DNA of 64,000 bases, taken from Leptolyngbya boryana PCC 6306 (GTDB lineage: Bacteria > Cyanobacteriota > Cyanobacteriia > Leptolyngbyales > Leptolyngbyaceae). The stretch spans positions 4,048,577 through 4,112,576 of the forward strand of contig NZ_KB731324.1 in the NCBI RefSeq assembly GCF_000353285.1. Reading direction: 5' to 3'. Under the pieces are notes generated by a model. The model worked only from the letters and a program-made list of their open reading frames with translations. It did not search any database and was not told the origin of the DNA. Positions 3,552 to 17,131 of this stretch are shown in pieces (within the stretch, counting starts at the first letter, position 1; each line of letters begins with the position of its first letter). The translations under genes and the position numbers were made by a program.

Positions 3552-4430
3552 CTATTTCGCCGGAGTTAAAGGCGGAACAGCTTGCAGTGCCTTACGATCA
3601 GCATCGGTCAACGGCAACAGCGCATCCATCTCGAATGTGGTTGCAATCTGGTTGTCCGGTTGGCAGTTCGTCAAGTAGCGAATCGTGCCATCCGGCTGAA
3701 TCTCATACAACCCTTCGGAAATCTTGTTATCGATCACTTTGACATCGAGATTGCGAATCAGCAGTAACGGCTGAAGTCGCTCGATCGTTCTAAAAATCGA
3801 TTGAGTCTGATTAAAGTTACCTCGGATATCAATACTGATCGATTGCCGCTTTAACTTCCCGTTAATCGGTGTGCCGAGTGAACCATCGCTAATCACCACA
3901 GCACCTTTCTCATCCGGCTTAAACCGCTTGAGTTTGGCTTCAGCGACTAAATCTCCAAACTTATCTTTAAACTCTTGAGCACCACCCGGAGTCGCAAACA
4001 ACTGCTGCACATACACTGGGCAAGCATTGAGCTTGGTATTTGTCGCAGCTAGTAAACCTGCATTATTTCTTTCAATCAGTTGATTGAGATCGAGCAGCAA
4101 GGTATTCAACGTTTTTTCACTCGCAAACAAGCCATAGACCTGATCGCGCTTTTGCTTGGCTTTTGCTAATTGATCCTTTGCATTCTGAATCTGTTTCCGG
4201 ATTTCTCCTTGCTGTTCAAGCTGTTCGGTCTTCTCTCTAACGCTGCTATTTAAGGATTGATTCGTCTCCCAAGCAGGCATGACCAGATAAGAGACGATGC
4301 CACCTGCTGCAACAAGCCCGAGCACTCCTAACAACACTCCGCCAATTGCTGGAGTAAAAGTAACTCCAAACGCAGTCGGATAGCTTGGAGAATTCTCCAA
4401 CTCCGATTCCGTCATAAAATCAGTCGTCAT
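3552..4430 (-). CDS. pilO: Type IV pilus alignment protein PilO
   Basis: 292 residues. One membrane helix lies near residues 27-52 after a short cytoplasmic tail, followed by a coiled coil (about 57-105, Glu/Gln/Lys rich) and a periplasmic ferredoxin-like region. This is the standard PilO layout. PilO pairs with PilN in the inner membrane and links the PilM ring and motor to the PilQ secretin. Its ATG overlaps the pilN stop by four bases (ATGA), so the two are translationally coupled. Sequence similarity in this family is low, so the call rests on topology plus gene order. Confidence 0.9.
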   Translation of the reverse strand: MTTDFMTESELENSPSYPTAFGVTFTPAIGGVLLGVLGLVAAGGIVSYLVMPAWETNQSLNSSVREKTEQLEQQGEIRKQIQNAKDQLAKAKQKRDQVYGLFASEKTLNTLLLDLNQLIERNNAGLLAATNTKLNACPVYVQQLFATPGGAQEFKDKFGDLVAEAKLKRFKPDEKGAVVISDGSLGTPINGKLKRQSISIDIRGNFNQTQSIFRTIERLQPLLLIRNLDVKVIDNKISEGLYEIQPDGTIRYLTNCQPDNQIATTFEMDALLPLTDADRKALQAVPPLTPAK

Positions 4431-5317
4431 GGCTTCTTCGCTCCATTCTTTTCAGTCGCATCAGGTTTAGCAGGTGCTTTGGGGGTCGTCGAAATCACAC
4501 CGCGTTCTTTCAAAGATTCAATCCGAGTCACAAGACCCACTGCCCCTTTACGATCGAGTTCTCGAATCAGTTCCGAAGCAGGCACATCGTTAATCGCGGC
4601 TGAAATGACAAATTGCACTTTTCTCGGCAAGCGGGGCGGCTTAATCTCACCTTCGCGCTTCAGCCCAGGAAAATCGGGTAATTGCAGCGTTTTCTCCTCA
4701 CCCAACTCCGCACTGACCACTTTAGTTGCTTCTGCTTTCAAGAAGTTCGACTGTTGTAACGTCAACAAGAAATCATTGACATCATTCATCGAATTCGCCA
4801 GCCCTCTGATTTCGATCTGCCCAGAAACTGGAGGTTTTGCTGCTGCTGCCGGAGTTCCTGCTGCTGGGGCGGCTGGAGCAGGTTGAGCCTGATTGATCTC
4901 GACTTTCTGCTGAGTAATCGATGCCAGTTGAATACTCGAAGGCAAGCGATCGCGAATATCCTGGGTCATCGCTGACCAAGGCTTGATTTGGTTAAAGACC
5001 GATGCGAGTGCCTGGGCTTCTTCTTCGACCTGTTTCGTCTCCGCTTGAATCGATGAGAGATTCTTCTTCTCAGTTTCTAAATTACCGAGTTGAGTATCGA
5101 GATCCGCTTGCTGACGTTCTAAGTCGCCATTGCGCAAGGTGAGAATCCCGAAGAGGACACCTGCAAGCACTGGGAAAAAGATCAGTGCCGCAAACCCAAA
5201 ATATAAAGGACGCTTTTCTTCAGGTGAACCTGTCGGTTTTGGACGACCGACACTCCGTCGCTTATCGGGCTTAATATCCGGTCTATCGTTGAGAAAATTG
5301 ACATCTAAACTGTACAT
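4427..5317 (-). CDS. pilN: Type IV pilus assembly protein PilN
   Basis: 296 residues. The short cytoplasmic N-terminus holds MYSLDVNFLNDRP, which corresponds to the conserved INLLP-type PilN motif that docks into PilM. A membrane helix follows at about 40-64, then a coiled coil (about 66-112) and a periplasmic domain with an Ala/Pro-rich insert near 147-163. A Lys/Ala-rich tail closes the protein. The gene starts immediately after the pilM stop and overlaps pilO by four bases. It forms the PilN-PilO heterodimer of the alignment subcomplex. Confidence 0.93.
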   Translation of the reverse strand: MYSLDVNFLNDRPDIKPDKRRSVGRPKPTGSPEEKRPLYFGFAALIFFPVLAGVLFGILTLRNGDLERQQADLDTQLGNLETEKKNLSSIQAETKQVEEEAQALASVFNQIKPWSAMTQDIRDRLPSSIQLASITQQKVEINQAQPAPAAPAAGTPAAAAKPPVSGQIEIRGLANSMNDVNDFLLTLQQSNFLKAEATKVVSAELGEEKTLQLPDFPGLKREGEIKPPRLPRKVQFVISAAINDVPASELIRELDRKGAVGLVTRIESLKERGVISTTPKAPAKPDATEKNGAKKP

Positions 5318-7933: not shown

Positions 7934-9808
7934 TTAGATTTGGGATTGTGGATTGAAAGAAACGAGTGAAGCAATAGAGTTGGGCGCGATCAGCCATTCT
8001 GAAATCTTTTCGATTTGAGCCATTGGAGCAAGATCACTGGGCGCGTTGGGAAGATTCACAACTGTTTTACCAGCGAATTCTTCTAATCTTTGAGTTGCGC
8101 GATTATTGACGATAAACCGCTGATGAATCTGCAATGGTTCGAGCGATCGCACTAAGCGCTCGGTTTCGGCAAAAATCGTCGATCGTGCCTGAACCACGCC
8201 AATAAATTCGGTATGCTCAGCGTTTTGAAGCTGTTTGTGAGTCTTGATAATTCGCAGTCTTAACGTGCGTAAGCGGCTCATCAGTTCAGTATGTCCCGCG
8301 ACGTTCTGATATTTCAGCCAGAGCTTAAAAATCCAGGTGAGCCAATCCGTTAACACAGACGGCATTTCGAGAAAGCGCAAGAGATGCCCAGTCGGAGCTG
8401 TATCGAGAATGATCAGATCTTGTGCATTCGATTCCAGCAGTTCCATAACTTCGAGGAGCGCGAGCATTTCATCAATGCCCGGAAGGGCTTGAGCCATGAT
8501 TTTGCGCCATGCTTCTGGCGTGTAAGCAATTTGCAGCGATTCATCTTGAGTTTTGCCACTCATCATGTCCGCTAATTCCCAAAGATACTCTTCCCGAAAG
8601 CGATCGAGCAAGGTTCGAGCATCGACTTCTTGAGCGCTGAGGTTGGGAAGAATGTCAGTTGGCTCATGTCCAAGCTGAGTGCCAAAAGCATCGCCCAAGG
8701 AATGAGCCGGATCGATCGAGATGACTCGAATTTTCCGATCTGGATGCTGTTGAGCAAGATTGAGCGCGATCGCGGCTGCAACTGTCGTTTTGCCCACCCC
8801 TCCTTTTCCGCCGACCAGAATTAACTTACGCTGTTCTAGGATGAAATCGGGAAGAGACTGAGACGGTGCAATTGGAATCGCTGAAGGGACGAATTCTGAA
8901 TGAGTTGTAATTAAGCGATCGAGGGCTGCAATTCCAATCGGTTCCTGAGACTGTTGTGAGAATGTCAGCACCGGATCTGCAATCTCTTGAAACTTGCGAA
9001 CCAATTCCTCCCGTTCAGCGTGAACTTGATTGAGGAACACTCCGCCAAAAGGAATTTTAAGCGCTTCTAGAGCTTTGATTAATCTCTGAGATTCCAGCAA
9101 ACTGAGCCATTCTGCGATCGCGACAACAAAACAAGCAGATCTTGCTGAATCTTGAAGTAATTGGCGACCGTCGGTTAAATCTCGGCGCATCGATTCTAGA
9201 AAGAGATCGACTTCATCCGGTGTGTAGCGACCTGTAAAAGCCTCGCTCATTGTTCGATGCTTGAGCTGAAAGAGTTCGAGAGCCGATAAAAACTCTTCGA
9301 GAAACTCCATCAGATTAAACAGTGCCAGCGTATGACCGCTTGGAGCCATATCCACTACGATCCGATCCACAACGCGATCGCGCAATAATCGCTGAATTTC
9401 AAGAATCCCCATCAATTCATCTAAGCCTGACCAGCCCAATTCCCAAACTGACGCTAAATCACCTTGCCCAACAAAGCTGCCTCGCTCGACTAATCGCTCT
9501 AGAATCTCCCCATATTCCGCTTTGAAGTCTTTCAGCAGCAATTCAGCATCCAATGCCCTGACGCTTAAATTCGGCAAGCTCTCGATGGTTTGAGCCGTAT
9601 TGCTAACTTCCATCTGCAAAACATCACCTAAAGAGTGAGCCGGATCAGTGGAAAGCAGCAAAATACGATCGTTAGGAAACTGTTTTGCCCAGCGACAAGC
9701 AAATGCGCTTGATAGTGTCGATTTCCCAACACCGCCTTTACCGCTAAACATTGCCAGATGGAGAGAATCAAACGAATTCAACATAGTTCTGCGATCGAGT
9801 TTGGGCAC
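7934..9808 (-). CDS. Tandem ArsA/Get3-type ATPase
   Basis: 624 residues made of two ArsA-like halves. Half 1 has the deviant Walker A GKGGVGKS at 23-30 and a DPAHSLGD switch. Half 2 has GGKGGVGKTT at about 333 and again DPAHSLGD. Signature lysines in both P-loops are intact, so both halves look able to bind ATP. Family members either drive arsenite efflux with ArsB or act as Get3-like chaperones for tail-anchored proteins. No ArsB or arsenic operator is nearby, so a chaperone-like role is the more likely one (inference). The last residues (about FNPQSQI) are encoded by a common cyanobacterial TTTGGATT-type spacer repeat, suggesting a recently extended tail. It diverges from the AAA+ gene across 137 bases. 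Confidence 0.88.
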   Translation of the reverse strand: MPKLDRRTMLNSFDSLHLAMFSGKGGVGKSTLSSAFACRWAKQFPNDRILLLSTDPAHSLGDVLQMEVSNTAQTIESLPNLSVRALDAELLLKDFKAEYGEILERLVERGSFVGQGDLASVWELGWSGLDELMGILEIQRLLRDRVVDRIVVDMAPSGHTLALFNLMEFLEEFLSALELFQLKHRTMSEAFTGRYTPDEVDLFLESMRRDLTDGRQLLQDSARSACFVVAIAEWLSLLESQRLIKALEALKIPFGGVFLNQVHAEREELVRKFQEIADPVLTFSQQSQEPIGIAALDRLITTHSEFVPSAIPIAPSQSLPDFILEQRKLILVGGKGGVGKTTVAAAIALNLAQQHPDRKIRVISIDPAHSLGDAFGTQLGHEPTDILPNLSAQEVDARTLLDRFREEYLWELADMMSGKTQDESLQIAYTPEAWRKIMAQALPGIDEMLALLEVMELLESNAQDLIILDTAPTGHLLRFLEMPSVLTDWLTWIFKLWLKYQNVAGHTELMSRLRTLRLRIIKTHKQLQNAEHTEFIGVVQARSTIFAETERLVRSLEPLQIHQRFIVNNRATQRLEEFAGKTVVNLPNAPSDLAPMAQIEKISEWLIAPNSIASLVSFNPQSQI

Positions 9809-9945
9809 AATCCTTGTACTGAATGAATTCGAGTTTGGTGCAAATTCTTGGGAGATTCTCTTCAGTGCAGAAACTGAAGAAGCTCAAAACCCATCGCCAC
9901 CCCGATCCAATCAGTATTTGTAGTCTTCCCACCCAGTACCACCCA

Positions 9946-11739
9946 ATGAGTGAGCTATTTAAAGGATTTGAGCAACTTTTAGAACTTGCCAAAGTGCTAG
10001 AAGAAAAAGCCGAAAAAGGTGAACTCAAAGCCAATATTCAAGTCAATCGTGCCGCTTTTAGCAGCATTCCCCGCAACACAGGCGGCATCGGCGTGAGTAG
10101 CATGGGCGCGAATCGTTCTCCTCAAGCTCCGACTCAAGATGTAATCGTGACTCCACCGCCTGCCAATTCGACTGCTTCACTTCAGGATGTGGGCGGACTG
10201 GGTGAAGTTCTTAAAGAACTCAGAGAATTAGTTGAATTGCCCCTCAAACGTCCAGAAGTTCTCGCAAAATTGGGACTTGAACCGATTCGAGGTGTATTGC
10301 TAGCCGGATCGCCAGGAACCGGAAAAACTTTGACTGCACGGGCACTAGCGGAAGAGTTGGGTGTCAATTACATCGCGATCGCTGCTCCTGAGGTAATGGG
10401 CAAATACTACGGTGAAGCAGAAGGGCGACTTCGCAGTATTTTTGAGAAAGCGGCAGCGTCGGCTCCTTGCATTATCTTTATCGACGAAATCGACAGCTTA
10501 GCGCCTGATCGGGCCAAAGTCGAAGGCGAAGTCGAAAAGCGAGTCGTCGCCCAATTACTCACCTTAATGGATGGATTTGCACAGACAAAAGGTGTAATTG
10601 TTCTCGCAGCAACGAATCGTCCGGATCATCTTGATCCAGCTTTACGAAGACCGGGAAGATTCGATCGAGAAATTCAGTTCCGCGTCCCCGATCGCGATGG
10701 ACGCTTGGAAATTCTCAAAATTCTGACGCGATCGATGCCTCTCAAATCTGTCAATCTCGACTCGGTTGCCGATCTCACGATTGGCATGGTCGGCGCAGAC
10801 CTCAAAGCAGTCTGTCAAAAAGCAGCTTATACAGCCTTGCGACGGCAAGTTCCCTCATTAAATGCAGTTCCCGATGAATTAACGATCGACCAATCCGATT
10901 TTCTACAAGCCTTGAAAGAAGTAAAACCGTCTGTTCTGCGATCGGTTGAAGTCGAATCACCGCAGGTCAATTGGGATCAAATCGGTGGATTAGAAGCCAC
11001 AAAACGCACCTTACAAGAAGCAGCAGAAGGTGCAATGCTTTATCCTGAACTCTATCAACAAACAGGAGCCAAAGCACCGCGAGGAATTCTCCTGTGGGGA
11101 TTACCTGGAACCGGGAAAACTTTACTCGCGAAAGCGGTCGCTTCTCAAGCAAGAGCGAATTTTATCTCGGTGACCGGTGCAGAATTGATGAGCCGTTGGG
11201 TTGGAGCAGCAGAACAAGAAGTTCGAGATCTGTTTAACAAAGCACGTCAAGCTTCCCCTTGTGTTGTGTTCATTGATGAGATTGATACGCTCGCTCCCGT
11301 CCGTGGCAAATTTAACGGCGATTCGGGAGTCAGCGATCGCGTCGTCGGTCAACTCCTGACTGAACTTGATGGATTACAAGACTGTGGTGCGATTCTGTTA
11401 ATTGCAGCAACCAATCGCCCGGATGAACTCGATCCTGCTTTACTGCGTGCAGGGCGTTTGGATCTGCAAATTCAAGTCAATCTACCCGATGAAGCAAGTC
11501 GTTTAGAAATTCTGCGAGTTCACAATCTCGATCGACCTTTATCCGAAGTTGACTTAGCCGCGATCGCAGCTCAGACCGAAGGCTGGAACGGGGCGGACTT
11601 AGCGCTTTTAAGCAATCAAGCAGCACTGCAAGCGATTCGACGCTATCGTGCTCAAGGAATGACTGAACCAGAAAATCTAGCAATTAACGGGGAAGACTTC
11701 GCGATCGCGTATCAAGCACTCCTAAGCCAACGTCGGTAG
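9946..11739 (+). CDS. CDC48-like double AAA+ ATPase, gas-vesicle-linked
   Basis: 597 residues from the ATG at 9946. The frame runs open back to 9823, but that part reads as non-conserved and overlaps the divergent promoter. Two AAA modules: D1 has GSPGTGKT around residue 120-128 and CIIFIDEID; D2 has GLPGTGKT around 384-392 and CVVFIDEID, each with an AATNRPD sensor region and an arginine-finger-type GRFDRE or GRLDLQ. The CDC48 N-domain is missing. Instead there is a short helical head (LLELAKVLEEKAEKGE, near residues 10-25) and a low-complexity linker. It lies directly upstream of gvpA on the same strand and so may remodel Gvp proteins, but this is inference from position only. Confidence 0.85.
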   Translation: MSELFKGFEQLLELAKVLEEKAEKGELKANIQVNRAAFSSIPRNTGGIGVSSMGANRSPQAPTQDVIVTPPPANSTASLQDVGGLGEVLKELRELVELPLKRPEVLAKLGLEPIRGVLLAGSPGTGKTLTARALAEELGVNYIAIAAPEVMGKYYGEAEGRLRSIFEKAAASAPCIIFIDEIDSLAPDRAKVEGEVEKRVVAQLLTLMDGFAQTKGVIVLAATNRPDHLDPALRRPGRFDREIQFRVPDRDGRLEILKILTRSMPLKSVNLDSVADLTIGMVGADLKAVCQKAAYTALRRQVPSLNAVPDELTIDQSDFLQALKEVKPSVLRSVEVESPQVNWDQIGGLEATKRTLQEAAEGAMLYPELYQQTGAKAPRGILLWGLPGTGKTLLAKAVASQARANFISVTGAELMSRWVGAAEQEVRDLFNKARQASPCVVFIDEIDTLAPVRGKFNGDSGVSDRVVGQLLTELDGLQDCGAILLIAATNRPDELDPALLRAGRLDLQIQVNLPDEASRLEILRVHNLDRPLSEVDLAAIAAQTEGWNGADLALLSNQAALQAIRRYRAQGMTEPENLAINGEDFAIAYQALLSQRR

Positions 11740-11835: not shown

Positions 11836-11902
11836 ATCAGAATCTGTCCATGTTAAGTGTGGAAGACTAATCCATCAGAATCTGAGCCGGAACACTTCCA
11901 CA
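11836..11902 (+). promoter_or_regulatory. Repeats in the gvpA promoter/leader region
   Basis: An exact 11-base direct repeat (ATCAGAATCTG at 11836-11846 and 11874-11884) interleaves with an inverted repeat (TGTGGAAG at 11858-11865, CTTCCACA at 11895-11902). The pattern ends 35 bases before the gvpA start. It could be a regulator site or leader structure; no known consensus is matched. Confidence 0.4.
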
Positions 11903-11937
11903 TTCAACTACTCTTAATCACGGAATTACAAACCATC

Positions 11938-12156
11938 ATGGCTGTTGAAAAAGTAAACTCTTCTTCGAGCTTGGCAGAAGTTGTGGATCGCATTCTCGAC
12001 AAAGGTATTGTTGTTGATGCTTGGGTGCGTGTTTCGCTCGTAGGGATTGAATTGTTAGCAATTGAAGCTCGCGTCGTCATCGCATCTGTAGAAACCTACT
12101 TGAAATATGCTGAAGCTGTCGGCTTGACGGCTCAAGCTGCAGTTCCTGCTGCATAG
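11938..12156 (+). CDS. gvpA: Gas vesicle main structural protein GvpA
   Basis: 72 residues, the usual length. The sequence from [20 protein letters not shown] through the [14 protein letters not shown] and [19 protein letters not shown] segments is the near-invariant GvpA core. The start is ATG 11938, because the family begins MAVEK; the longer ORF from 11857 is leader sequence. GvpA polymerises into the gas-permeable ribbed wall. It is followed after eight bases by a strong terminator, which should make a short abundant gvpA message and a small read-through fraction for gvpC onward. Confidence 0.97.
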
Positions 12157-12223: not shown

Positions 12224-13252
12224 ATGGCTTTCAAAGATTCCTGGCAACAGCAACGACAAGTAAGACTGCAACAGGTAGCACAGCGTCGTCAAGCCGTTTC
12301 TGCGCTCCTCCAAGCAACGCATGAACAACGTCAACTGAATGCGTCTCAACTCCGAAGTGATCTGAGTTTATTTCGCGAAACCTTCGCTTACGACACCAGC
12401 TTGCGCCGTCAAAATTTGCATCAGTTCTGTGAAACGCTCCAAGAACAGACTCAAGAATTTTTAGCGGTCGCCCAAGCTGAGCGCAGTCTCATTTCACAAC
12501 AGTTGAGACATGACCTCAGTGCATTTCGATCTACACTCAAGCAAACTGTAGAATCACTCCGGCGAGAAATTCAAGCCGATCTTCAGATCCTTCAGATTGA
12601 AGTTCAAGCGCAGCTAGATGACGCACGCCAGCAGAGAATCAAAAATCAGGTTCGACACTCGCGAAACCTACGCATCTTTGTTGAGCAACTTCACACAACT
12701 GTTGACGCATTCCTCGCAGATTGTGCCTTAGAGCGCCAGGAAAAAGCAGCACAAGCTCAACTCGATCGCGAAACTGAATTAGCCGCACTGTTCAAGAAAT
12801 TTGCTGAATTTCGAGCACAGCTACAACAGTATCGCACTGAACTTTCCCATAGCGTTTGGGGAGACCTTTCTGAGCCAGCGTCTCAACCCGCCCAACCCGC
12901 TACACCGAAGCCTGTAGCAGTTGTAGAATCTGTAGAACCTCCTGTCGTAAAACCTGCTGCTAAGCCGATTATTGTCTTGAAAAAGCCCGAAAAGAGAGGG
13001 CGAGGGTTCCAAGTTGCGACATCAGCAACATCAGCTTCTCCCAAACCTGCACTCAAGGTAGAGGAAGCTCCTACACTCTCCTCAGATGAGCAGAGAATTT
13101 ATGACTACATCGAAGACATGCAAGGTGCGCGATTAACTGAAATTGAATCCGCACTCGGCATTACTCGACTTCAGGCTGTAGAAGGACTGCGATCGCTCAT
13201 TCAGCAAGGCAAAATCACTCAAAAAGATCGCGTTTATTTAATCCATCAATAA
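12224..13252 (+). CDS. gvpC: Gas vesicle reinforcing protein GvpC with a C-terminal winged-helix-like domain
   Basis: 342 residues. Residues 1-210 are Gln/Arg/Leu-rich amphipathic helix with loosely repeated [18 protein letters not shown]-type units of the GvpC kind, which clamp the outside of the vesicle wall. A Pro/Ala/Val linker follows (about 215-283). Residues 285-342 form a compact domain ([20 protein letters not shown] onward) that looks like a winged helix and closely resembles the end of GvpN. Ordinary cyanobacterial GvpC lacks such a tail, as far as I recall. The gene sits 67 bases after gvpA, beyond a terminator, and 16 bases before gvpN. Confidence 0.88.
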
Positions 13253-13268
13253 GGAAAGGACACGCCCT

Positions 13269-14648
13269 GTGACGACTGTATTAAGAGCTAGCCCCCGCCA
13301 CTTTGTCAGTACGCCCGCGCTCGATCGCATTACGCTGCGCGCACTACGTTATTTGCAGTCTGGTTTTTCAGTTCACTTGCGCGGCTGTGCAGGGGTCGGT
13401 AAAACGACCCTAGCACTGCACTTAGCTGATTTGCTAGCTCGTCCCATCATGCTGATGTATGGCGATGACGACTCGAAAAGTTCAGACATGATTGGCGCGC
13501 AAGCAGGCTACACCCGTAAGAAAGTCGTCGATAACTTCATTCATAGCGTGATGAAGGTTGAAGACGAGATGAAACACACTTGGGTAGATTCTCGATTGAC
13601 ATTAGCTTGCCGAGAAGGATTCACACTCGTCTATGACGAATTTAATCGATCGCGTCCTGAAGTCAATAATGTGCTGCTCTCAGCCTTAGAAGAAAAGCTA
13701 CTCGTCTTACCTCCGACGAGCAATCAGACCGAATACATTCGAGTCAATCCGCATTTTCGAGCGATTCTTACCTCGAATCCAGAAGAATATTGTGGCGTGC
13801 ATTCGACCCAGGACGCTTTGATGGATCGCTTGGTCACCATCAATATGCCTGAGCCAGATGAACTGACGCAGCAAGAAATTCTGATTCAGAAGACAGAAAT
13901 TGAGCGATCGAGTGCTGCATTTATTGTGCGATTTGTGCGAGCGTTTCGACAAAAAACAGGCGCAGAGAAAGCTTCTGGCTTGAGATCGTGCTTGATGATT
14001 GCAAAAGTCTGCCAAGAACATCACATTGCTGTCCTCCCTGAAGACGCAGAATTTCGGGATATCTGCTCAGATGTCTTGCTCTCACGCATTGGCATCGCGC
14101 TTGAAGATGCAACCAAAATCTTGTGGGCACTTCTCAATGAGCAAATTGGAGCAATTGAAATCCCCGTCATTTCAACACCACAAGCAACCGTTGAGCAAAT
14201 TGCTCAAACTGTTCAAGCATCCCTCAATGAGCAAACTGAAGCAATTGAAATCCCTGTAATTTCAACGATACAAGCAGCAGTTGAGCAAATTGCAAGTGCT
14301 CAACCCGTACAAGCACCCTTTTTAGATGCAGAAGAACGTGCAGAATTAGCACTTCAAGAGCCACTCGAAGCGGCTCCTCTCAACCAACAAGTCGAAGCGC
14401 TCTTAAGTGATCTGCCAGAACTGGAAGAAGCGAGTACGATGAATGAGATTGCCGATGAGATTTCTCAAGAGCAGCAAATTTATCGCTATTTACTTCGATC
14501 GAAAGGTGCAGGACTCTCAGACCTTGAAAGTGAATTCAGTCTCGTCCGAACTGAACTACTCGAATCGATTCGAGCTTTGACCATTCAAGGTTTAGTCATT
14601 CACCGCGATCGACGTTTCTTTGCTGTCGAGCCTGCATTGGAGAGCTAA
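13269..14648 (+). CDS. gvpN: Gas vesicle AAA+ ATPase GvpN with repeat linker and C-terminal winged-helix-like domain
   Basis: 459 residues. GTG start with an AAGGA site eight bases upstream. The N-terminal MoxR-type AAA+ core has Walker [10 protein letters not shown] at 38-46, Walker [12 protein letters not shown] near 120 and a [17 protein letters not shown] sensor region, all typical of GvpN. After about residue 285 the protein is longer than usual. It has a 30-residue unit duplicated in tandem ([13 protein letters not shown]), an acidic linker, and a final domain (398-459) homologous to the end of GvpC. GvpN is needed for full-size vesicles. The added tail may couple it to GvpC (inference). 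Confidence 0.93.
14133..14318 (+). repeat. 90-bp tandem duplication inside gvpN
   Basis: Two copies with a period of exactly 90 bases (copy 1 from 14133, copy 2 from 14223) encode [15 protein letters not shown] and [15 protein letters not shown] followed by similar EQIA segments. The copies have diverged mostly at third positions, so the duplication is not very recent. Confidence 0.85.
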
Positions 14649-14650
14649 GT

Positions 14651-15046
14651 GTGACGACCCCGACGAAGAGCATTCAGAGACCGATGCCCACGGCCACCCA
14701 AGGTTCCACCTTGGCAGATGTATTAGAGCGCGTTTTAGACAAAGGAATTGTAATTGCTGGAGACATTTCAGTTTCCGTTGCGACGACTGAATTATTGACG
14801 ATTCGGATTCGATTGTTGATTTCTTCAGTCGATAAGGCACGTGAGATGGGAATCAATTGGTGGGAGAACAATCCTCATTACAGTGCTCAATCGAGAGAGC
14901 TTCTCGAAGCGAATCGCGCACTGATGGAGCGAGTAGAATCGCTAGAAACAGAGCTAAAAGCTTTGCGTCCAGCAGTTTCGCCATCTCTGCCCAAACCACC
15001 TGCGACCCCAGCCGAAACCTTGAAATCACTGCTCCAAGATCTGTAA
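14651..15046 (+). CDS. gvpJ: Gas vesicle minor protein GvpJ
   Basis: 131 residues, GTG start two bases after the gvpN stop. Residues 19-70 repeat the GvpA fold (LADVLERVLDKGIVIAGD.. and ..TTELLTIRIRLLISSVDKA), followed by WWENNPHYS and a coiled-coil plus Pro-rich tail. This is the layout of GvpJ/GvpM-type nucleation proteins, which are thought to cap or start the vesicle cones. Tight spacing on both sides supports co-translation with gvpN and gvpK. Confidence 0.92.
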   Translation: MTTPTKSIQRPMPTATQGSTLADVLERVLDKGIVIAGDISVSVATTELLTIRIRLLISSVDKAREMGINWWENNPHYSAQSRELLEANRALMERVESLETELKALRPAVSPSLPKPPATPAETLKSLLQDL

Positions 15047-15049
15047 GCT

Positions 15050-15484
15050 ATGTCTTCTCTTGCCCCGAAAGCTAAGCCTGATGCAGGTCTTGCTCCCTTG
15101 CTTCTCACCGTGGTCGAACTGATTCGACAATTGATGGAAGCTCAAGTGATTCGTCGGATGGATAGCGGAGAACTCAACGATGCGGATCTCGATCGTGCCG
15201 CAGATAGTCTTCGTCAACTTGAAGCACAAGTCATACGATTGTGCGATGTCTTTGAGATTGATCCGGCTGATTTAAACATTGATCTCGGTGAAGTTGGCAC
15301 ATTGCTTCCGAAAAATGGCGGGTACTATCCTGGAGAACGATCGACCAGTCCAACGATTTTAGAGTTGCTCGATCGCTTACTCAACACAGGTGTCGTTCTC
15401 GAAGGCAATGTTGATCTCGGTCTCGCTCAAATCGATCTGATTCACGCAAAACTCCAGCTAGTTCTGACTGCAAAGCCCATTTAG
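15050..15484 (+). CDS. gvpK: Gas vesicle protein GvpK with GvpA-like C-terminal segment
   Basis: 144 residues. The first ~90 are the GvpK domain (LAPLLLTVVELIRQLMEAQV.., ending DLNIDLGEVGTLLP). The last ~45 (ILELLDRLLNTGVVLEGNVD onward) run parallel to the GvpA/GvpJ core: LxxxxDRxLxxGxVxxGxxxxxLxxxxLxxxxxxLxL. It starts four bases after gvpJ ends. GvpK is an essential minor assembly protein of unknown mechanism. Confidence 0.93.
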   Translation: MSSLAPKAKPDAGLAPLLLTVVELIRQLMEAQVIRRMDSGELNDADLDRAADSLRQLEAQVIRLCDVFEIDPADLNIDLGEVGTLLPKNGGYYPGERSTSPTILELLDRLLNTGVVLEGNVDLGLAQIDLIHAKLQLVLTAKPI

Positions 15485-15498
15485 CCCCGGTTGAAACG

Positions 15499-16236
15499 AT
15501 GAGCAATTTATATTTGTACGGCATTTTCCCCGCTCCCGGTCCTCAAGATCTCGACCTGCAAGGACTCGATCAAAAACCTGTACAGACTCAGATTGTAGAT
15601 GGGTTTGCGTTCCTCTACTCGGAAGCACAGCAGCAACGCTATCTCGCGAGTCGTCGGAACCTGCTTGGACACGAAAAAGTGTTAGAGCAAGCAATGCAGG
15701 CAGGCTATCGGACACTTTTACCGCTTCAGTTTGGTTTAACGATCGAGACTTGGGAAACCGTCTCCGATCAACTTACTGCTCCGCATTTTGAGCATTTAAA
15801 AACTCTATTTGAAAAGCTAGATGGACGGCGCGAAGTTAGTATCAAACTGTTTTGGGACAGTGCCGAAGAATTACAAGCGTTGATGGCAGAGAATGCTGAA
15901 CTTCGAGAGCAGCGCGATAGCTTAGAAGGAAAATCGCTGAGCATGGATGAAATTGTCCGCATCGGGCAAGCGATCGAACATGCGATGAGCGATCGACGCG
16001 AAGCCATCATTACTGAGTTTCAAACCACTTTGAATGCAATGGCGATCGAGATTGTCGAGAACGATGTCCTGACTGAAGCGATGATTTACAACGCTGCATA
16101 CCTGATTCCGTGGGAATCCGAATCAGAATTTAGTCAAGCCGTGGAAAGACTAGATCAACAATTCGACGGGCGCTTGAAAATTCGATACAACGATTTCACT
16201 GCACCGTATAACTTTGCTCAATTCGAGCGGGAGTAA
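15499..16236 (+). CDS. gvpF: Gas vesicle protein GvpF/GvpL family
   Basis: 245 residues with the N-terminal LYLYGIF.. strand and the RRNLLGHEKVLEQAM region of GvpF/L proteins. A central coiled coil (about 130-175) and a C-terminal half with AMIYNAAYLIPWESE and ..FEREIRYNDFTAPYNFA-type motifs, here KIRYNDFTAPYNFAQF, match the two-domain GvpF structure. GvpF binds GvpA and may deliver it to the nascent vesicle. Only one GvpF/L member is present here. Confidence 0.93.
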   Translation: MSNLYLYGIFPAPGPQDLDLQGLDQKPVQTQIVDGFAFLYSEAQQQRYLASRRNLLGHEKVLEQAMQAGYRTLLPLQFGLTIETWETVSDQLTAPHFEHLKTLFEKLDGRREVSIKLFWDSAEELQALMAENAELREQRDSLEGKSLSMDEIVRIGQAIEHAMSDRREAIITEFQTTLNAMAIEIVENDVLTEAMIYNAAYLIPWESESEFSQAVERLDQQFDGRLKIRYNDFTAPYNFAQFERE

Positions 16237-16241
16237 ATTCT

Positions 16242-16475
16242 ATGGTTTTACGCCTTTTATTTGCGCCTGTGACTGGGATTGGTTGGATTGCAGAACAGAT
16301 TCAAGAACGAGTCGATACAGAACTCGATCAAACCGAAAATCTCAGTAAGCGACTTCTGGCATTACAGCTCGCGTTTGATATGGGCGAGATTTCTGAAGCA
16401 GACTTTGAAGCACAAGAAGAAGAATTATTGCTAGCCATTCAGGCGCTTGAGGACGAACAGGCAGAATCGCAGTAG
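16242..16475 (+). CDS. gvpG: Gas vesicle protein GvpG
   Basis: 77 residues. The family pattern is a hydrophobic MVLRLLFAPVTGIGWIAEQI head followed by an acidic helical hairpin (LALQLAFDMGEISEADFEAQ..). It starts five bases after gvpF and closes the visible cluster. gvpV and gvpW, found in some other cyanobacterial clusters, are not seen here. Confidence 0.9.
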   Translation: MVLRLLFAPVTGIGWIAEQIQERVDTELDQTENLSKRLLALQLAFDMGEISEADFEAQEEELLLAIQALEDEQAESQ

Positions 16476-16504: not shown

Positions 16505-17131
16505 ATGCAAACTCAAGAGCCGATCGTATACCAAGGACAGTTCGGAGAATTTAGCATTGATGATCACGATCGTCAGGGCGTGATCCTTTATCGCAGCGGA
16601 TTAGCGATCGCTGCTTTGAGTTTTGCGATCGCGGTTGGACTAGCATTCTCGCAAAACTTTGCCTGGATAACGCCGCTTTACTTTGTATTTTGGACGGCGT
16701 TAGGCGTGAGCCTATTCACGATTCATATTTACCTGAAACCGTTACACCTCGCACTTCAGGCATTCTGGGCAATTGGCGGATTGGCTTCGATTGGAATGCT
16801 CTTGCTGAGTTCTGAACCGCTCGCACTGTATGTGTATCAGCATCCGATCACCATTTTTGGCATCGGGTTTACTTTCGCTGCTTTGACTGGAATTTTCTTT
16901 AAAGAAGCATTCTGTTTTAATCGGTTTGAGACAAAATTTCTGACTCCGATCGTGCCTTCATTACTGCTTGGGCATTTAAGTGGCATATTGCCATTGGTCT
17001 GGGAGCAAGTTTTATTAGGCGGTTGGGCAGTCTTATTTGCTATATTTGCAATCCGAAAACTGATTCAACCGATCCCTCCAGATATCGGAGATAAAAGCGT
17101 ATTTGAATACCTCAAGCATAAGCAAGCCTGA
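16505..17131 (+). CDS. DUF2301 family integral membrane protein
   Basis: 208 residues with about six hydrophobic segments after a ~30-residue cytoplasmic head (PIVYQGQFGEFSIDDHDRQG). It matches my memory of the cyanobacterial DUF2301 family, whose function is unknown. It begins 30 bases after gvpG, so it may be read through with the gas vesicle genes, but the family occurs in cyanobacteria without gas vesicles, so no functional link is claimed. Confidence 0.8.
   Translation: MQTQEPIVYQGQFGEFSIDDHDRQGVILYRSGLAIAALSFAIAVGLAFSQNFAWITPLYFVFWTALGVSLFTIHIYLKPLHLALQAFWAIGGLASIGMLLLSSEPLALYVYQHPITIFGIGFTFAALTGIFFKEAFCFNRFETKFLTPIVPSLLLGHLSGILPLVWEQVLLGGWAVLFAIFAIRKLIQPIPPDIGDKSVFEYLKHKQA

Follow-up and report, generated by a model that had tools for sequence, protein, structure and literature searches.

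The gas-vesicle gene cluster of Leptolyngbya boryana

The window, a stretch of 64,000 nucleotides from the genome of Leptolyngbya boryana PCC 6306, contains a gas-vesicle gene cluster in the order A-C-N-J-K-F-G, in which K is named by position (Table 1). The ATG start of gvpA is internal to a longer open reading frame (11857-12156), and gvpN starts 16 bases on the 3' side of the gvpC stop codon. The GvpN core scores 386 bits against TIGR02640, above the curated cut-off of 267. GvpC matches none of the GvpC models of Pfam and NCBIfam, and was assigned by the location of its gene between gvpA and gvpN together with repeats of approximately 33 residues among 58 relatives. In these relatives, the self-match of the repeat region is highest at a shift of 33 residues, with 51 close behind and approximately equal; in the GvpC of the window alone, the best shift is 51, and both 51 and 40 score above 33. 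As the first-pass annotation had it, GvpC and GvpN each carry a C-terminal tail tied by a long linker to a different core, and the boundaries that it gave for the two tails were accurate.

Table 1. Genes of the gas-vesicle cluster, and parts of GvpC and GvpN, in the window
Feature	Position	Strand	Basis
gvpA, major shell protein	11938..12156	+	NCBIfam GvpA, E 2.5e-40
gvpC, shell-strengthening protein, 342 aa	12224..13252	+	between gvpA and gvpN; helical repeats
GvpC helical repeat region, residues 1-212	12224..12859	+	33-residue periodicity, 58 relatives
GvpC linker, residues 213-283, Pro/Ala/Lys/Val-rich	12860..13072	+	dN/dS 0.46 vs nearest relative
GvpC predicted winged-helix tail, residues 285-342	13076..13249	+	AF2, Foldseek, TrmB in homologous tails
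gvpN, AAA+ ATPase, 459 aa	13269..14648	+	TIGR02640, E 7.6e-116
GvpN AAA+ core, residues 12-274	13302..14090	+	aligned span of TIGR02640
GvpN linker, residues ~294-395	14148..14453	+	dN/dS 0.47 vs nearest relative
GvpN predicted winged-helix tail, residues 398-459	14460..14645	+	AF2, Foldseek, TrmB in homologous tails
Remaining cluster genes	14651..16475	+	tail in none
GvpA/J-type protein	14651-15046	+	
GvpK-position protein	15050-15484	+	weak GvpM/GvpA matches only (NCBIfam); GvpK name from position
gvpF	15499-16236	+	
gvpG-like	16242-16475	+	

On the 3' side of gvpG, a gene for a 208-residue membrane-type protein without a match in NCBIfam (16505-17131, + strand) is present in six of 81 gvp loci, of which those listed are close relatives. 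The cluster is also adjoined by genes for a double-domain ArsA/Get3-like ATPase (7934-9808, - strand) and a CDC48-like double AAA+ ATPase (9823-11739, + strand). This pair adjoins many other cyanobacterial gvp clusters, and because it is linked to clusters with and without tails it does not track the tail; these ATPases were therefore rejected as a common tail partner. A 2010 paper on ArsA homologues (PMC2963123) is said to mention gas vesicles and cyanobacteria as well.

Homology and predicted fold of the two tails

The proposal that residues 285-342 of GvpC and 398-459 of GvpN are homologous was borne out. The two tails align with 34% identity over 68 columns (BLASTP, E=4e-9 as a single comparison), and when the GvpC tail was used to query the entire 7.26 Mb genome, the only other significant match was the GvpN tail (E=3e-6; next match 0.12). 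The first-pass annotation would have abandoned its proposal if profile searches found no mutual similarity; a profile of 58 GvpC tails aligns with a profile of 54 GvpN tails at a probability of 99.9 and E=2e-31. The alignment of motifs on which the proposal was based is real, but its first motif, given as S-x2-EQ for both proteins, is S-x-EQ in GvpN.

A winged-helix-like fold had also been predicted, and the AlphaFold (AF2) models, for which the tails of GvpC and of GvpN were aligned separately, agree with it. Both models have the order helix-strand-helix-helix-strand-strand, comprising three helices and a two-stranded wing, with core pLDDT of 92-94 for the GvpC tail and 97-98 for the GvpN tail. 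The helices span residues 287-299, 304-311 and 315-328 of GvpC and 400-411, 416-423 and 427-439 of GvpN; the wing strands span residues 331-334 and 337-340 of GvpC and 443-446 and 449-452 of GvpN. Foldseek matched the GvpC tail to the DNA-binding winged helix 7bzh (TM 0.84/0.88), and the GvpN tail to the folds of Csa3, 7bzh (within the top five), CggR, FtsK gamma and MarR; the E-values, at best 2e-3, are weak, which is unsurprising for a 55-residue domain. The commonest Pfam match in both sets of tails is TrmB (PF01978), found at E<=0.1 in 53 of 58 GvpC tails (best 8.6e-8) and 48 of 54 GvpN tails (best 2.9e-9). The two tails of the window do not reach the curated cut-off of TrmB in a Pfam search; two tails of relatives exceed it in a whole-genome search. 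By profile and model, both tails are members of the TrmB/MarR-like winged-helix superfamily.

Resemblance of the tails by chance or as coiled coils, without homology, would fit the window tails' single-sequence Pfam matches, all of which fall under curated cut-offs, but it is refuted by the profile-profile match and the agreement of predicted folds. The BLASTP and whole-genome matches, the TrmB matches of homologous tails and the restriction to genomes with GvpN also count against it, and its probability is negligible.

At the start of the predicted recognition helix is an Arg that does not vary in either alignment, that of GvpC tails or that of GvpN tails, and GvpC tails have a near-invariant Q two residues beyond it. 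By alignment, the Thr and Arg positions of GntR-type proteins in this helix correspond to F/I/L and V in the tails. The wing motif is gone from many GvpN tails. Net charge was dropped as a test of DNA binding; the ranges for the tails (medians +1 for GvpC and -0.5 for GvpN) overlap with that of the GntR domains of relatives (median +2).

Distribution of the tail among cyanobacteria

The first-pass annotation suggested a survey of Gvp clusters for the tail, which was found to be present on GvpC and GvpN in many cyanobacteria and absent from others. Among 386 cyanobacterial genomes, one per species, GvpN is present in 56, and the tail (E<=1e-6) was detected in 25 of these versus none of the 330 genomes without GvpN. 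All examined matches are located in GvpC or GvpN, and most tail-bearing genomes possess exactly two tails. The expectation that the domain works in a context shared by the two proteins is thus supported, because the tail is found only in gas-vesicle genomes. Among plasmid records, only the Nostoc sphaeroides GvpN matched the tail; for proteobacterial and haloarchaeal GvpN proteins in these records, the alignment is confined to the core, and no tail was found.

The arrangement of tails was compared at 80 named GvpN loci, which were chosen by similarity to GvpN of the window and are therefore skewed towards its relatives, so that the sample of 386 genomes is the fairer one. Both proteins are tailed in most Leptolyngbya, Phormidium, Oscillatoria and Nodosilinea-type strains. 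At approximately ten loci only GvpC is tailed, and GvpN stops after a low-complexity linker; a genome search for a stand-alone tail elsewhere in these C-only genomes found none. Only GvpN is tailed in Nostoc, and neither protein is tailed in Microcystis, Dolichospermum, Anabaena and Calothrix. Since tail-less clusters exist, the tail is dispensable for gas vesicles as such.

Several loci depart from the usual arrangement. A third tail carrier approximately 6 kb from gvpN, apparent in four genomes, was discounted, being GvpC itself relocated beside another gvpA. At loci L223, L224, L225 and L226, which belong to one family, tailed gvpC lies beside gvpA at this distance from gvpN, and therefore both tails survive without gene adjacency; in L223 and L225, gvpW-like and CDC48-like genes lie between gvpN and gvpC. 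Some loci are in draft assemblies, so that an isolated broken tail may be an error. The GvpC tail is out of frame in one draft genome (L101). In Arthrospira sp. PCC 9108 (5924-6878 of L138), the GvpC tail is not in the reading frame of gvpC and contains a stop, with a second, shorter gvpC upstream (4380-4832). The last 19 residues of GvpN at two Microcystis loci, L137 and L145 (QSIKAIQSLLRTNLLKQKD), show a non-significant similarity to the latter half of the tail, and may be the remnant of a lost GvpN tail.

Origin and selection

The tree built from 123 tails requires two changes of the C or N label, and the tree in which GvpC tails are held together is 43 log-likelihood units above the free tree (p-AU 0.99). 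The preference for one GvpC clade and one GvpN clade indicates one domain transfer with no exchange since; most simply, these sequences suggest that the domain was copied once between the neighbouring gvpC and gvpN genes, and that the copies have not mixed since then.

Both tails are under strong purifying selection, whereas the linkers drift, evolving rapidly by dN/dS. Between the window and locus L066, dN/dS is 0.06 for the tail, 0.46 for the linker and 0.17 for the repeats of GvpC, and 0.12 for the tail, 0.47 for the linker and 0.04 for the core of GvpN. Across pairs, dN/dS of the GvpC tail is mostly 0.02-0.16, with the majority of pairs at 0.02-0.08, under that of GvpC's own repeats, and in most pairs no other part of GvpC is as conserved as the tail; dN/dS of the GvpN tail is mostly 0.04-0.12, with a few higher values up to 0.38. 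In C-only lineages, the lone GvpC tail is conserved to the same degree as its counterpart in paired lineages. A mirror-tree comparison gave no clear sign of tail-tail contact, since co-divergence of the two tails is near background (partial rho 0.17 vs 0.11). GvpC-tail distances follow GvpN-core distances (rho 0.84), which may reflect species descent only.

Relation to known proteins

The first-pass annotation knew of no description of the shared domain. This holds for its fold and range, but part of it was noticed in Planktothrix by Pancrace et al. 2017 (PMC5259702), who reported that the C-terminal part of GvpC40 has a 28-residue stretch 64% identical to Planktothrix GvpN, and is 78% similar over 60 residues to GvpC of Geitlerinema PCC 7407. 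GvpC40 was found in non-planktic (benthic) Planktothrix, and shorter GvpC variants in planktic strains. The 28 residues are approximately half of the domain, and the similarity of GvpC to GvpN occupies one sentence, without fold, phylogenetic range, single origin, selection, mechanism or role. No account of the domain as a winged helix or helix-turn-helix was found in the open-access gas-vesicle literature. The usual laboratory species lack the tail pair, which may be the reason for the oversight.

A haloarchaeal parallel is found in Halobacterium salinarum, where a globular C-terminal domain of GvpC, described with a zinc-finger motif, binds GvpN, GvpO, GvpC itself and accessory Gvps (PMC9372576). 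The GvpC tail of the window is likewise a globular C-terminal domain after helical repeats, but it is a predicted winged helix without cysteine (none in residues 285-342), and has no zinc-finger motif. TrmB/MarR-like domains (PF01978, PF01047) share with the Gvp tails both a sequence profile and the helix-strand-helix-helix-wing fold, but occur in transcription regulators, whereas the Gvp tails are terminal modules, one on a shell protein and the other on an AAA+ ATPase, and make up a gas-vesicle-restricted set of their own; neither GvpC nor GvpN has the architecture of a DNA-binding, sugar-responsive regulator. In RuvB and Orc1/Cdc6, an AAA+ core is followed by a C-terminal winged helix that belongs to the core and binds DNA. 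GvpN has the same order of parts, but its winged helix is carried on a linker of approximately 100 residues, and many GvpN proteins lack this domain.

Possible functions of the tails

The first-pass annotation suggested that the tails dock on a common partner, on each other, or on DNA. An obligate pair, in which the GvpC tail and GvpN tail serve only to bind each other, would account for the adjacent genes, the same fold, the single duplication and the exact count of two tails in most tail-bearing genomes; the existence of C-only and N-only lineages makes it unlikely. A well-conserved GvpC tail persists beside a tail-less GvpN in genomes that hold no further copy, Nostoc retains only the GvpN tail, and specific co-divergence is lacking, so mutual binding is disfavoured as the sole role and has a small probability. 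A somewhat more doubtful alternative is mimicry, in which the GvpN AAA+ core would recognise the GvpC tail, and GvpN's own tethered copy would compete and tune the ATPase. The GvpN core is indeed still present in C-only genomes, and the correlation of GvpC-tail with GvpN-core distances fits, if it exceeds what species descent alone would give; N-only Nostoc would possess a competitor without a target.

The tails may otherwise be working DNA-binding winged helices; GvpC would in that case anchor vesicles to the nucleoid, or GvpC and GvpN would sense free subunits and regulate gvp genes. By fold and by profile, the nearest counterparts of the tails are DNA-binding winged helices (7bzh, Z-alpha, MarR, IclR, TrmB). 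This fold family keeps DNA binding somewhat plausible, as does the invariant Arg with which the recognition helix starts, accompanied in GvpC tails by the near-invariant Q. Weighing against it, the tails are near neutral or acidic (with charge ranges that overlap those of GntR domains), many GvpN tails lack the wing motif, and a vesicle-coating protein is an odd site for a DNA-binding domain. On balance, we give DNA binding a low but real probability. A more specific version is that vesicles display hundreds of DNA-binding winged helices, with GvpC as a nucleoid tether in benthic and terrestrial cyanobacteria, GvpN recruited to the same DNA, and the tether lost in bloom-forming planktonic lineages; this is a speculation with little probability.

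The most likely reading, to which we give about an even chance, is that a winged helix found only with gas vesicles, duplicated once between gvpC and gvpN and selected in both, is a putative protein-docking module. Homology, predicted fold, restriction to gas-vesicle genomes, the single C/N split, purifying selection and uncoupled losses are its established portion; from these we infer the docking role. The hydrophobic residues aligned with the Thr and Arg positions of GntR-type proteins argue for docking. The mostly DNA-binding fold family, the invariant Arg, which also suits nucleic acid, the near-background co-divergence of the tails, and the tail-less clusters of Microcystis, Dolichospermum and Anabaena argue against it. 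By analogy with the haloarchaeal data (PMC9372576), it is plausible that a C-terminal domain of GvpC serves in docking. Because the losses are uncoupled, each tail should bind something present in both situations, for example the core of GvpN, GvpC or an assembly factor common to both.

As a putative docking module on a flexible tether, the tail of GvpC, which coats the shell exterior, would extend outwards from the vesicle and bind a further Gvp protein, whether GvpN (by its core or its tail), a second GvpC molecule or an assembly factor. The GvpN tail, through the same binding surface, would recruit the ATPase to that partner or to the same surface. Shell growth by GvpN, which is an active ATPase (PMC7204071) required for vesicle elongation (PMC11445434), and reinforcement by GvpC would then share one site.

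Implications for gas-vesicle biology

A shared and separately foldable domain on exactly these two proteins offers a direct handle on how GvpN acts on GvpC and on the growing shell. The clusters commonly studied in the laboratory, those of Anabaena and Microcystis, represent a different, tail-less architecture. In gas vesicles engineered as acoustic reporters, tailed GvpC proteins could provide the vesicle surface with a naturally occurring site for docking.
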